From: Ignavibacteria bacterium | Lineage (GTDB): Bacteria > Bacteroidota > Ignavibacteria > Ch128b | Reading direction: 5' to 3' | NCBI GenBank assembly: GCA_013177855.1 | Contig: JABLYA010000001.1 | Span: 1,225,231 to 1,289,230, forward strand | DNA length: 64,000 nt | In this document: in pieces, positions 1,733 to 13,244 of the stretch | How positions within the stretch are numbered: position 1 is the first letter of the stretch | Layout: each line of letters begins with the position of its first letter | Notes under the pieces: generated by a model | The model's database searches: none | The model's input: only the letters and a program-made list of their open reading frames with translations | What the model was told of the DNA's origin: nothing | Program-made: the position numbers and the translations under genes

Positions 1733-2548
1733 ATGATTACAAAAGAAATGAAAATCTCAGAAATTTTGAAACTATATCCCGAAACACTGCAAATTTTTCT
1801 GAAAATGAGTCCGCACTTCAAAAAATTAGAAAATAAAATTCTACGAAAAGCTTTAGCCGGTCGAGTTAATGTTGAACAAGCTGCTAAAATCGCTGGAGTT
1901 GATCCTAACCATTTACTATTTGAATTAAACAAAGCAATTAATTCTCAAATTCAAGAAGAAATCATCAGTGATAACAACTTAGATAATACATTAAATCTTG
2001 AAAATCAAAAATCAGAATTCTTAATTAATATACTCGAGGAAAAAATCATCGAGTTAGATGTTCGACCCATTCTTGATTCAGGCATCGATCCATTTAACGA
2101 TATTATGAAAAAAGTAAAGAATTTAAAGGATGATGAAGTTCTTTTAATCATTAATTCATTTGAACCTGTTCCATTGTATTCAGTTCTTGGTAGAAAAGGT
2201 TTTGATCATTTTACTAAAAAAGAAGGCGACACCTTTAAAATTTACTTTTTCAAGAAGCAGATTTCCGATGATAATCTCAAAATTTTTAAAGAACCGAATG
2301 AAGAAATTGATATTAATGATTTCGAGAAAGTAATTGAATTAAATGTTCGTGACTTACCTCCCCCTGAACCAATGATGAAAATTTTAGAGGCATTATCACA
2401 AATTGACGAAAAATCTGTCCTTCTGGTTCATCATCATCGTGAACCAGTAATGCTCTATCCAAAACTCGAAGAGCGAGGATACGAAGCCATAACATATCAG
2501 GTTGATGAGAATTATTACAAAGTTCTGATAATGAAGAAAAGGAATTAA
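1733..2548 (+). CDS. DUF1858-DUF2249-DUF2249 protein
   Basis: A soluble protein of about 271 residues. Residues 5-70 form a DUF1858-like helical domain (ISEILKLYPET, then VNVEQAAKIAGVD). Two DUF2249 domains follow, each beginning with a short acidic strand (IELDVRPI; IELNVRDLPPPEP) and containing an E-P-V-x-L-Y core; the second has a His-rich HHHREPV stretch. DUF2249 proteins are often found beside nitrate, nitrite, NO and N2O respiration genes; their biochemical role is not settled, and metal or heme binding through the His cluster is only a guess. I chose the ATG at 1733 because the frame upstream (TTG at 1688) encodes a basic, unconserved leader before the DUF1858 match. It lies between nosF and a membrane protein with 3-4 bp spacing, so it is co-transcribed. 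Confidence 0.75.
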   Translation: MITKEMKISEILKLYPETLQIFLKMSPHFKKLENKILRKALAGRVNVEQAAKIAGVDPNHLLFELNKAINSQIQEEIISDNNLDNTLNLENQKSEFLINILEEKIIELDVRPILDSGIDPFNDIMKKVKNLKDDEVLLIINSFEPVPLYSVLGRKGFDHFTKKEGDTFKIYFFKKQISDDNLKIFKEPNEEIDINDFEKVIELNVRDLPPPEPMMKILEALSQIDEKSVLLVHHHREPVMLYPKLEERGYEAITYQVDENYYKVLIMKKRN

Positions 2549-10775: not shown

Positions 10776-10810
10776 TTGTCATTTTGAATTTTGGGAATTT
10801 TAAAACAAAA

Positions 10811-10843
10811 AAACCTTCGATTTTGTGAGAAAATCGAAGGTTT
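10811..10843 (-). terminator. Terminator of the tRNA-Thr unit
   Basis: A perfect 14-bp stem (AAACCTTCGATTTT with its complement) and a 5-base loop. On the minus strand it is followed by TTTTTTTGTTTT, so it ends transcription of the tRNA just downstream of its 3' end. Confidence 0.9.
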
Positions 10844-10847
10844 GTTG

Positions 10848-10920
10848 AGCTGGCGGAGGGACTTGAACCCACGACCTGCTGATTACAAGTCAGCTGCTCT
10901 ACCAGCTGAGCTACGCCAGC
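10848..10920 (-). tRNA. tRNA-Thr (anticodon TGT)
   Basis: Read on the minus strand, it folds as a standard cloverleaf: acceptor GCTGGCG/CGCCAGC (7 bp), D-arm GCTC/GAGC, anticodon stem GCTGA/TCAGC with loop CTTGTAA (anticodon TGT, reading ACA), and T-arm with loop TTCAAGT. The T-stem has one T-T mismatch. The discriminator is T; CCA is not encoded. A terminator follows directly. This is the only complete tRNA I find in the window. Confidence 0.93.
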
Positions 10921-10974
10921 ATTTAAATCTTAATCTCTACCAAAATTTCAATTTGTGAATTTACTTTCAATCAC

Positions 10975-11023
10975 GACCTTCCCGATTAAAATCGGGATGC
11001 TCTACCAACCGAGCTACGCCAGC
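10975..11023 (-). pseudogene. tRNA-Thr-like 5' half, copy 1
   Basis: On the minus strand it starts GCTGGCGTAGCTCGGTTGG, matching the acceptor 5' strand and D-arm of the real tRNA-Thr, then has a 7-bp hairpin TCCCGAT/ATCGGGA with loop TTTA in place of the anticodon arm, and AGGTCGTG. The T-arm and acceptor 3' strand are absent, so it cannot be a normal tRNA. The anticodon position would read TTT, but decoding is not expected. Confidence 0.8.
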
Positions 11024-11077
11024 ACTTAATTCTTAATCTCTACCAAAATTTCAATTTGTGAATTTACTTTCAATCAC

Positions 11078-11125
11078 GGCCTTCCCGATTGAAATCGGGA
11101 TGCTTTACCAGCTGAGCTACGCGAG
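11078..11125 (-). pseudogene. tRNA-Thr-like 5' half, copy 2
   Basis: Same layout as copy 1: acceptor 5' strand slightly altered (CTCGCG), D-arm GCTCAGCTGGTAAAGC, then hairpin TCCCGAT/ATCGGGA with loop TTCA. The T-arm and acceptor 3' strand are missing. The hairpin stem is identical to copy 1 although it differs from the functional tRNA. Confidence 0.8.
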
Positions 11126-11176
11126 TGTTTAATTCGTAATTTCTACCAAAATTTCAATTCAATTAAAAATGCGATG

Positions 11177-11207
11177 CAAAAATACGATACGAACAGAAAA
11201 TTTTCAA
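11177..11207 (-). promoter_or_regulatory. Promoter of the tRNA-Thr / tRNA-like unit
   Basis: On the minus strand, ATTG is separated by 20 bases from TATTTTTG. This fits the Bacteroidota promoter (-33 TTTG, -7 TAnnTTTG) in sequence and spacing. It lies downstream of the glnA terminator and upstream of both tRNA-like copies, so the predicted transcript runs through them into tRNA-Thr and stops at 10811. Confidence 0.6.
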
Positions 11208-11263: not shown

Positions 11264-12691
11264 TCAAACATCATAATAAAGTGCAAATTCAAAGGGATGC
11301 GGTCTTAAAGCCATTTCTTGTAATTCACGAGTTTCTTTATAAGAAATCCAGGTCTTAATTACATCCTCAGTAAAGACATTTCCCCTTAAAAGGAATTCGT
11401 GATCTTTTTTCAAAGCTTCAAGTGCTTCGCCAAGTGATGCAGGAGTATGAGGAACATTCTTTAATTCTTCTGGCGGCAAATCATAAATGTCTTTATCCAA
11501 TGGTTCTCCTGGTTCAATTTTATTGATTATTCCATCAAGTCCAGCCATTAACATCGCTGAAAATGCAAGATATGGATTGCACGATGGATCGGGACATCGA
11601 TACTCAATTCTTTTTGCTTTTGGATTATGTGTGTACATTGGTATTCTGATTGCAGCACTTCTATTTCTTTGAGAATAAGCGAGATTAACTGGAGCTTCAA
11701 ATCCAGGAACAAGCCGCTTATAAGAATTAGTTGTTGGATTAGTGAAAGCACACAAAGCTGGCGCGTGTTTCAATAGTCCACCTATGTAATAAAGTGCAAG
11801 TTCACTTAGTCCAGCATATTCTTTACCAGCAAATAATGGTTTGTTGTTTTTCCACAAACTTTGATGCACATGCATTCCACTTCCATTATCACCAAATAAT
11901 GGTTTCGGCATAAATGTAGCTGTATAACCATGTTTGTTTGCCGTATTCTTAACGATATATTTGAACATCATCAATTGATCTGCTGAGCGAATTAATTCAG
12001 CGAATCTCAAATCAATTTCTCCTTGTCCACCTGTTGCAACTTCATGATGTTGTGCTTCAACTTCAATCCCACACTTAATTAATGTTTGGACCATTTCATT
12101 TCTTAAATCATTAAAAGAATCGATCGGAGGAACAGGGAAATACCCTTCTTTCTGTCTTGGGAAATAACCATTATTTGGAAACTCTTTTCCTCGACTCCAA
12201 ATTCCCTCTTGTGAATCAATTTCATAATAGGAATAGTTTATTGATGCATCAAATCTCACATTATTAAAGATGAAAAATTCAGCTTCAGGACCAAAGTAGG
12301 CTGTATCTGCGATGCCAGTCGATCTTAGATATTCAACTGCTTTTTGAGCAATACTTCTTGGGCATCTTTCGTATCTTTCATGAGTAATAGGATCATAAAC
12401 ATCGCAGATTAAGCTTAAAGTAGGGACATCAATGAACGGATCAACAAAAGCAGTATCCGGATCTGGAATAATAATCATATCACTTTCATTTATTGCTTTC
12501 CAGCCTCTGATACTCGAAGCATCAAAACCAAATCCATTTTCAAATGCGGATTCATCAAATTGATCAATAGGCACGGAGAAATGCTGCCATTGAAATGGAA
12601 AATCAATGAACTTAAAATCAATCATTTTTATGTCATGCTTTTTTATTAGAGAAAAAACTTTCTCTATGGAATTTGCATTTCGTTTTTTCAT
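11264..12691 (-). CDS. glnA: Glutamine synthetase, type I
   Basis: A 475-residue cytoplasmic glutamine synthetase that makes glutamine from glutamate, ammonia and ATP. It shows [10 protein letters not shown] near the N-terminus, the metal/glutamate motifs [19 protein letters not shown] and [16 protein letters not shown], the NRSAAIRIP loop, and [19 protein letters not shown]. Residue Y403 in [10 protein letters not shown] matches the Tyr that is adenylylated in GSI-beta enzymes, although no adenylyltransferase gene is in the window. Its ATG overlaps the stop of the Lrp gene by 4 bp (ATGA), so the two are one operon and the regulator probably controls it. Confidence 0.96.
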
Positions 12692-13164
12692 CTGTGTTCC
12701 CTTTCCTTTTGTTTGATTTTAACTATTTGAAAATCTTTAATTGTTGATAAAACTACATTGGTTTTTGTACCTGTAACTCCTGGCCATGCTTGAATCTTTG
12801 AGAGGATTTTTTCGAGCGAAGAGGTATTTTCAGTTACAACTTTTAAGATATGCGAGCCCTCACCTGTTATTGAATGACATTCAAGTATTTCAGGTTCGTT
12901 CATTGCCTTTTGCGTAAATGAATGATAATATTTTGACGACTCCATAAAGACGAAGATGAATGCTGTTACATCGTATCCAGCTTTTTTAAAATCAATATGT
13001 GCTGTGTATCTCTTAATCAATCCTTTATCTTCTAATTTTTTTATCCTCTCACTGATTGCTGGAACAGTTAAATTGACCTTTTCTGCCAAGTCGCTTCTTT
13101 TTATTCTGGCGTTCTCTTGAAGCAATTCAGCTATCTTAAAATCAATTTCATCCAATGAATACAT
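12688..13164 (-). CDS. Lrp/AsnC family transcription regulator
   Basis: A 158-residue regulator: an N-terminal winged helix-turn-helix ([20 protein letters not shown], recognition around [17 protein letters not shown]) and a C-terminal RAM/AsnC effector domain ([16 protein letters not shown]). Lrp-family proteins bind amino acids and control nitrogen and amino-acid genes as dimers or octamers. The 4-bp overlap with glnA and the 17-bp perfect palindrome upstream at 13245-13261 suggest that it regulates its own operon and glutamine synthesis. The ligand cannot be told from sequence; glutamine or a related amino acid is a natural guess. Confidence 0.93.
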
Positions 13165-13244
13165 TTCTTAACTCCATTAATTGGTTGCAATATTAAAGTA
13201 TTATATGATTATTGTCAATTTTTTTTAAGTTAATTATAATAATC

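Follow-up and report, generated by a model that had tools for sequence, protein, structure and literature searches.

Hairpin-bearing tRNA-Thr fragments in an Ignavibacteria genome and their link to GIY-YIG nuclease genes beside tRNAs

Why should incomplete copies of a tRNA gene, each with a perfect hairpin in place of its anticodon arm, stand in tandem directly upstream of the intact gene? The question arises at the tRNA-Thr locus of an Ignavibacteria bacterium, within a stretch of 64,000 nucleotides that we analysed as a whole (the window). We compared the window and the 3.66-Mb genome that contains it (G000) with two other species of the same genus (G001 and G002) and with a member of a sister genus in the same family (G004), and then with similar loci in other bacteria.

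The array at tRNA-Thr

The intact tRNA-Thr(TGT) occupies 10920-10847 on the minus strand (ARAGORN; Rfam tRNA, 72.2 bits). Upstream of it on the same strand lie two tandem 5' partial copies of tRNA-Thr(UGU), units u1 and u2. The features of the locus are as follows.

11264-12691, minus strand: glnA-like glutamine synthetase (identity read from the sequence), the upstream syntenic marker in G001, G002 and G004
11177-11207, minus strand: promoter of the array and tRNA-Thr, Bacteroidota type TTG-N20-TAnnTTTG (TTG at 11207-11205, TATTTTTG at 11184-11177)
11127-11162, minus strand: leader or partial spacer ahead of unit 1 (from the repeat structure)
11101-11126, minus strand: unit 1, tRNA-Thr acceptor 5' strand and D-arm, diverged (repeat comparison)
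11083-11100, minus strand: unit 1 hairpin TCCCGATTTCAATCGGGA at the anticodon-arm position (palindrome search)
11024-11082, minus strand: unit 1, remains of the variable loop and T-arm, followed by a spacer that copies the tRNA leader
10998-11023, minus strand: unit 2, tRNA-Thr acceptor 5' strand and D-arm (repeat comparison)
10980-10997, minus strand: unit 2 hairpin TCCCGATTTTAATCGGGA at the anticodon-arm position (18/18 matches to G001 and to one G002 copy)
10921-10979, minus strand: unit 2 decayed variable loop/T-arm, then the leader of the functional tRNA
10847-10920, minus strand: intact tRNA-Thr, anticodon TGT (ARAGORN, Rfam)
10808-10846, minus strand: terminator-like inverted repeat (I1) after tRNA-Thr (repeat finder)

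The array has a period of 103 nt, and the repeat finder placed three copies in register (89% and 61% to the reference). Each unit runs from the acceptor 5' strand and D-arm through the hairpin and a decayed variable loop and T-arm to a copy of the tRNA leader. The hairpins, TCCCGAT-TTTA-ATCGGGA and TCCCGAT-TTCA-ATCGGGA, replace the anticodon arm with seven perfect base pairs and a 4-nt loop. The motif CCCGATNNNNATCGGG, with up to two mismatches, matched four times in the window against 0.42 expected, a count reached in none of 100 shuffles; together with the 103-nt in-register copies, this shuffle test rules out a chance repeat. The exact 18-mer palindrome is confined to the two array sites in the whole of G000, so it is not a fixed 18-mer mobile element there. 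Looser palindromes of the form TCCCGA-N3-6-TCGGGA number 11 in the same genome, and we take the insert to be a member of this dispersed class.

The initial annotation had described tandem tRNA-Thr 5' halves with a 7-bp hairpin in place of the anticodon arm, and the repeat finder, ARAGORN, Rfam and shuffles bear this out. Its account of the parts needs some correction. Acceptor and D-arm are indeed recognisable in both units, with mismatches in the acceptor and D-stem of u1, and the 3' acceptor strand is missing from u1 and u2 as stated. The T-arm, reported as absent, is instead degenerate: a variable loop and T-arm, decayed yet still recognisable (AGGTCGTGATTGAAAGT), follow the hairpin and are partly conserved between species. 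The spacers, given as identical, share ∼95% identity. Neither unit was called as a tRNA by ARAGORN or Rfam, and neither has the acceptor stem plus T-arm of a functional tRNA; Rfam matched only the ordinary tRNA in the window and only tRNAs in eight relatives. Single units fold only modestly better than shuffled sequences (z = −2.1, −2.0, and −1.4 in the three species).

All four genomes have one Bacteroidota-type promoter (TTG-N20-TATTTTTGCATC), which lies upstream of the array wherever an array exists. Its spacing is the same in G001 and G002, where the array is present, and in G004, where it is absent, and the promoter holds the only copy of TAnnTTTG between glnA and tRNA-Thr. Lying between this conserved promoter and the tRNA gene, the array should be transcribed as part of the pre-tRNA leader.

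The tandem unit recurs in relatives at the same locus, between glnA and tRNA-Thr, in G001 (76-nt units) and G002 (∼102-nt units), with the hairpin intact. Both contigs stop within the array, as is typical of short-read assemblies at repeats, and one such contig belongs to an uncultured Ignavibacteria bacterium in GTDB. In G004, glnA, promoter, and tRNA-Thr are present and the array is missing, which makes this an empty site. Occupied (G000, G001, and G002) and empty (G004) alleles thus exist among relatives, for the ORF-less array only.

The species compared are far apart. Third codon positions of glnA are identical at 60% between G000 and G001 and at 58% between G000 and G002, and the spacers are unalignable between species over much of their length. 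The 18-nt hairpin is nevertheless identical in unit 2 of G000, the aligned G001 units, and one G002 unit, and the remaining G002 units carry TCCTGATTTTTAATCGGGA (CCTGAT/ATCGGG), in which a G-U pair retains the RNA stem. Copies at the array edges are degraded (G002 u0 and the G001 C1 end). Conversion by the tRNA gene could keep the 5' halves of the units alike, but it could not maintain the hairpin, because the tRNA has none; its persistence beside near-saturated third positions therefore calls for selection or recent spread. This conservation rules out simple decay and upholds the earlier argument that the hairpin is no mere product of decay, as does its recurrence at the same place in unrelated tRNAs.

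Palindrome-bearing tRNA fragments in other genomes

A search of GTDB species genomes with the query GAGC plus hairpin yielded at least 118 stretches. GAGC-hairpin tRNA fragments occur on more than 100 contigs, often in tandem, and among the matches listed nearly all are from Bacteroidota/Ignavibacteria. Most of the listed matches are tRNA fragments of many isotypes, the great majority adjoining intact tRNAs. Within the class, the pattern of a hairpin in D-arm context was present in 63 of 197 genomes (∼97 matches, compared with 9 for a reversed-pattern control). We found no account of such elements in the open-access literature, and this widespread design of Bacteroidota-type bacteria is apparently undescribed. 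Among viral contigs, the search gave one match, a 3'-type tRNA-Arg element with a GIY-YIG-like frame at 12880-13187 of an IMG/VR contig (L134), at the end of the part fetched; the position is possibly a prophage border.

The fragments are of two kinds. A 5' fragment, from nucleotide 1 to about the T-loop, lies upstream of the intact tRNA, and a 3' fragment, starting in the D-loop, lies downstream of it, past the terminator. Displaced fragments carry at least one GC-rich palindrome, most often where the anticodon arm would be. Within the ∼300 bp that separate an intact tRNA from its 3' fragment there is often a gene for a small GIY-YIG endonuclease, and two loci (L050 and L122) repeat whole units of 3' half, terminator, ORF, and hairpin in tandem. 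Other loci resemble the window in having short noncoding units only, with no ORF between fragment and tRNA. Both sides of the tRNA are occupied at L116, L159, L167, and L203; at L116, four ORF-less 5' units precede a single tRNA-Arg, and a GIY-YIG unit follows it.

The palindromes are constant in structure and variable in sequence. All 18 displaced 3' copies are palindromic by eye, and 16 have a perfect stem of at least 6 bp, the other two falling short in the narrow scan window; the corresponding frequencies are 15% among background windows and 40% among functional tRNAs. Stem sequences differ, with compensation on the opposite strand (TCCCGA/TCGGGA, CTCCGAT/ATCGGAG, TTCCGAAT/ATTCGGAA, TCCCGC/GCGGGA, and TGGCGC/GCGCCA), and the loops vary too. 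Placement also shifts. In tRNA-fMet, the palindrome lies in the D-loop, and it does so in two families whose sequences differ (L210 and L255); in tRNA-Ser, it lies at the anticodon 5' strand, the variable arm, or the T-arm; and within one clade of Asp nucleases, it is found in the anticodon arm (L167) or the T-stem (L161). In two tandem units at one tRNA-Ser(GCT) (L219, 1370-1430 and 1820-1870), the hairpins share their position and are unrelated (CGTTCCGTTGTC..GACAACGGAACG vs. CGTGGCGCTACAAGCGCCACG). A single fixed nuclease recognition sequence is not supported, since stems differ (TCCCG, CTCCG, TTCCG, TGGCGC, and GTCAGCC) and position varies. What recognises or makes inserts that are variable in sequence yet strictly palindromic is the question that these observations raise.

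Palindromes of the TCCCGA-N3-6-TCGGGA form are dispersed through the class (544 sites vs. 16 for the reversed pattern, summed over 61 genomes), and the inserts in tRNA fragments therefore seem to be drawn from a pool of mini-palindromes. Some dispersed sites are terminator-like, for example L274. At four sites in G001 (L280-L283), TCCCGAT..ATCGGGA forms the middle of a dispersed repeat (cattgcgag-hairpin-aagcaatc), which looks as though one hairpin tip had been swapped for another.

GIY-YIG genes beside tRNAs

A second collection of loci was assembled by GIY-YIG family, which avoids the bias of the hairpin query, and the neighbourhoods were then inspected. Of 107 distinct small GIY-YIG domains, 33 follow a same-strand tRNA at a distance of at most 220 nt; the density of tRNAs (74 tRNA-like matches in 3.66 Mb) leads one to expect ∼0.2 such cases. 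Behind the ORF, a displaced 3' tRNA copy is recognisable at 18 of these loci. Fifteen GIY-YIG domains are placed upstream of a tRNA. Downstream placement is common, and in seven cases an upstream GIY-YIG gene sits between a palindrome-bearing 5' fragment and the intact tRNA (L144, L175, L237, L245, L247, L259, and L279). One of the seven, L279, is at tRNA-Asn in G002 and so belongs to the window's own genus; through their layout, L279 and like loci connect nuclease-bearing elements with the window's ORF-less 5' units. Genome-level counts of hairpins and GIY-YIG genes correlate with a Spearman coefficient of 0.41, a partly circular comparison.

G000 itself has a 3'-type element at tRNA-Ala(GGC), with a GIY-YIG ORF, the palindrome CTCCGATGCAATCGGAG, and a truncated second ORF. 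It also has an ORF-less 3' fragment of tRNA-Pro(TGG) with the palindrome TCCCGATTTATCGGGA beside the T-loop (L277, G000:C1:2507873). No GIY-YIG gene is present at tRNA-Thr in G000 or in the array-bearing relatives G001 and G002. The window array shares with the tRNA-linked GIY-YIG family a partial copy beside an intact tRNA of the same identity and a GC-rich palindrome within the fragment; it lacks an ORF between fragment and tRNA, and its units are therefore ORF-less derivatives rather than full members. That status rests on the four loci where ORF-less units and an ORF occur together (L116, L159, L167, and L203) and on those that combine 5' units with an ORF.

The tRNA-linked nuclease is a single GIY-YIG domain of 85-100 amino acids. 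The G000 protein matches PF01541 above the cut-off (3.8e-17) and is homologous over nearly its full length to the UPF0213 structures 1ZG2 and 1YWL. The catalytic Y, G, R, H, and E positions are conserved in the family, and the Arg(TCT) set of nucleases has a median dN/dS of 0.17, indicative of purifying selection; both features point to a selected and presumably working protein. In a tree of 81 tRNA-linked proteins, built on a short alignment with many forks unresolved, isotype changed 29 times compared with 53.8 in shuffled trees, none of 200 shuffles being as low. Pairs or groups for Asp, Met, and Val(TAC) span different families. This clustering fits isotype-specific targeting, with vertical descent at a locus contributing.

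Some further loci differ in their setting. At L218 (G032:C44:91500-94500), a tmRNA gene (1878-2236, minus strand) has a tandem pair of GIY-YIG ORFs behind it, which suggests that tmRNA is also a host site. At L137 (1381-1752), a GIY-YIG frame is open through the entire tRNA-Ala gene, and automatic annotation may therefore start the protein inside the tRNA.

Interpretation and comparison with known systems

The units could be functional parts of the pre-tRNA leader, with tRNA-half mimics and hairpins retained because they regulate how tRNA-Thr is transcribed, folded, or processed by RNase P, or how stable it is. Co-transcription is expected from the position of the array, and a hairpin kept near neutral saturation, even through a change that leaves a G-U pair, would suit such a role. 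However, like fragments lie downstream of other tRNAs, past terminators and beside nuclease genes, where no leader role is possible, and unit length and number vary between species. When hairpins were swapped, deleted, or shuffled in five arrays, predicted folding showed no consistent effect on the tRNA, which speaks against protection of pre-tRNA folding by the hairpin. The RNase P or processing-signal and decoy readings offered in the initial annotation gain no support from these predictions, and we regard a leader function as unlikely.

We rate just as low the chance that the units are neutral, decayed tandem duplications of the tRNA 5' end, into which a dispersed palindrome was inserted by accident. 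Degraded edge copies agree with such a history, TCCCGA..TCGGGA palindromes are dispersed in these genomes, and unequal exchange homogenises tandem repeats. Set against this are a hairpin intact in three species whose glnA third positions have diverged so far, the recurrence of the arrangement in many isotypes and lineages with inserts that differ and are still palindromic, and the close association with GIY-YIG genes.

Scars left at attachment sites by integrase-type islands, or by phages, that use tRNA genes are very improbable: a tRNA fragment beside an intact tRNA is the usual footprint of integration (PMC9897764), but the intervals here are 76-430 bp with no integrase within, fragment and tRNA differ in the anticodon arm, exactly where the attachment core should be identical, many tandem copies share the replacement, and the recurrent gene is a nuclease rather than a recombinase. 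Of the three guesses first made about the array, an integration scar still came nearest, with tRNA elements linked to a GIY-YIG endonuclease in place of an integrase island.

The link between the window array and the GIY-YIG element family is strong, and the array probably belongs, as an ORF-less member amplified in tandem, to a family of tRNA-associated, homing-type GIY-YIG elements. The window itself gives the anatomy; a nuclease would have to act on it in trans. It would cut in or near a tRNA gene, and recombinational repair would copy the element in, a complete tRNA being rebuilt from element-borne and host halves while the host's other half is displaced by the incoming unit. Further cuts or exchanges would amplify the unit in tandem. 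A palindrome from the dispersed pool may break the redundant copy, leaving it neither target nor tRNA; alternatively, the palindrome itself may be the structure that the nuclease recognises. Several points weigh against a homing account: the tRNA-Thr locus has no nuclease gene; the palindrome changes place even among members of a single nuclease clade, which misfits a single fixed recognition site; the intact tRNA copy is spared by a nuclease supposed to cut tRNA genes; and isotype clustering can also arise from vertical descent at one locus.

For the family at large, we tentatively propose, as a serious possibility held with less assurance than the placement of the array, that Bacteroidota and their relatives harbour undescribed tRNA-parasitic homing elements. 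Isotype-specific GIY-YIG nucleases would settle next to essential tRNA genes, rebuild them, and mark the displaced half with a hairpin, as an immunity mark or a recognition site, and ORF-less arrays would be a nonautonomous or target form, moved and amplified in trans. If true, a family of minimal selfish nucleases has its niche in the essential tRNA genes of a major bacterial phylum and would allow a direct test of the way in which a homing nuclease can live in an essential gene. It would also account for many false calls of tRNAs in annotations and for many tRNA fragments that have been puzzling. Taken as a whole, the family may well merit a name of its own among free-standing homing endonucleases beside tRNA genes.

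The proteins resemble single-domain GIY-YIG proteins of the UPF0213/COG2827 group, whose two PDB entries say hypothetical only; we found no tRNA-linked life style described for them in the open-access literature. REP palindromes with their RAYT transposases likewise combine a small nuclease gene with short, dispersed, GC-rich palindromes. RAYTs are HUH/Y1 enzymes, whereas the gene here is a GIY-YIG gene and the palindromes lie in tRNA fragments. Away from tRNAs, the GIY-YIG genes at L135 (G000:C1:1023758) and L200 (G003:C50) lie inside palindromic repeats that are dispersed (TGTCATCCTGAGCTTGTCGAAGG in G000), an arrangement that is possibly a GIY-YIG counterpart of REP/RAYT systems.

Another close system is SegB of T-even phages, a free-standing GIY-YIG homing endonuclease found at tRNA genes of many isotypes, for which cleavage of its own locus followed by recombination was shown experimentally to cause tandem segmental amplification (PMC13096335). 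The authors explain that amplification by microhomology that the tRNA 5' region shares with the segB 3' region (PMC13096335). The elements described here share with SegB a GIY-YIG nuclease gene beside tRNA genes of many isotypes and, for the family though not for the window locus, a catalytic domain under selection. Unlike the phage system, they occupy bacterial chromosomes, encode single-domain proteins, come with displaced, palindrome-bearing tRNA fragments, and include ORF-less arrays, and they are known here from sequence.

The mobile ORF elements (mORFs) of fungal mitochondria offer a parallel for displacement. In Allomyces atp6 and in Glomus atp6, atp9, cox2, and nad3, the element consists of a replacement gene end and an endonuclease ORF, with the native end displaced and left as a duplicate behind the ORF (PMC3630166). 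There, as at tRNAs, an endonuclease-bearing replacement displaces a gene end. As far as that account goes, the fungal targets are protein-coding mitochondrial genes rather than tRNAs, the endonucleases are LAGLIDADG or other types, and no recurrent palindrome is reported in the displaced end (PMC3630166). If our reading is right, the tRNA-linked elements rebuild the gene that they interrupt, as these mitochondrial gene-hybrid elements do, but in bacterial chromosomes.
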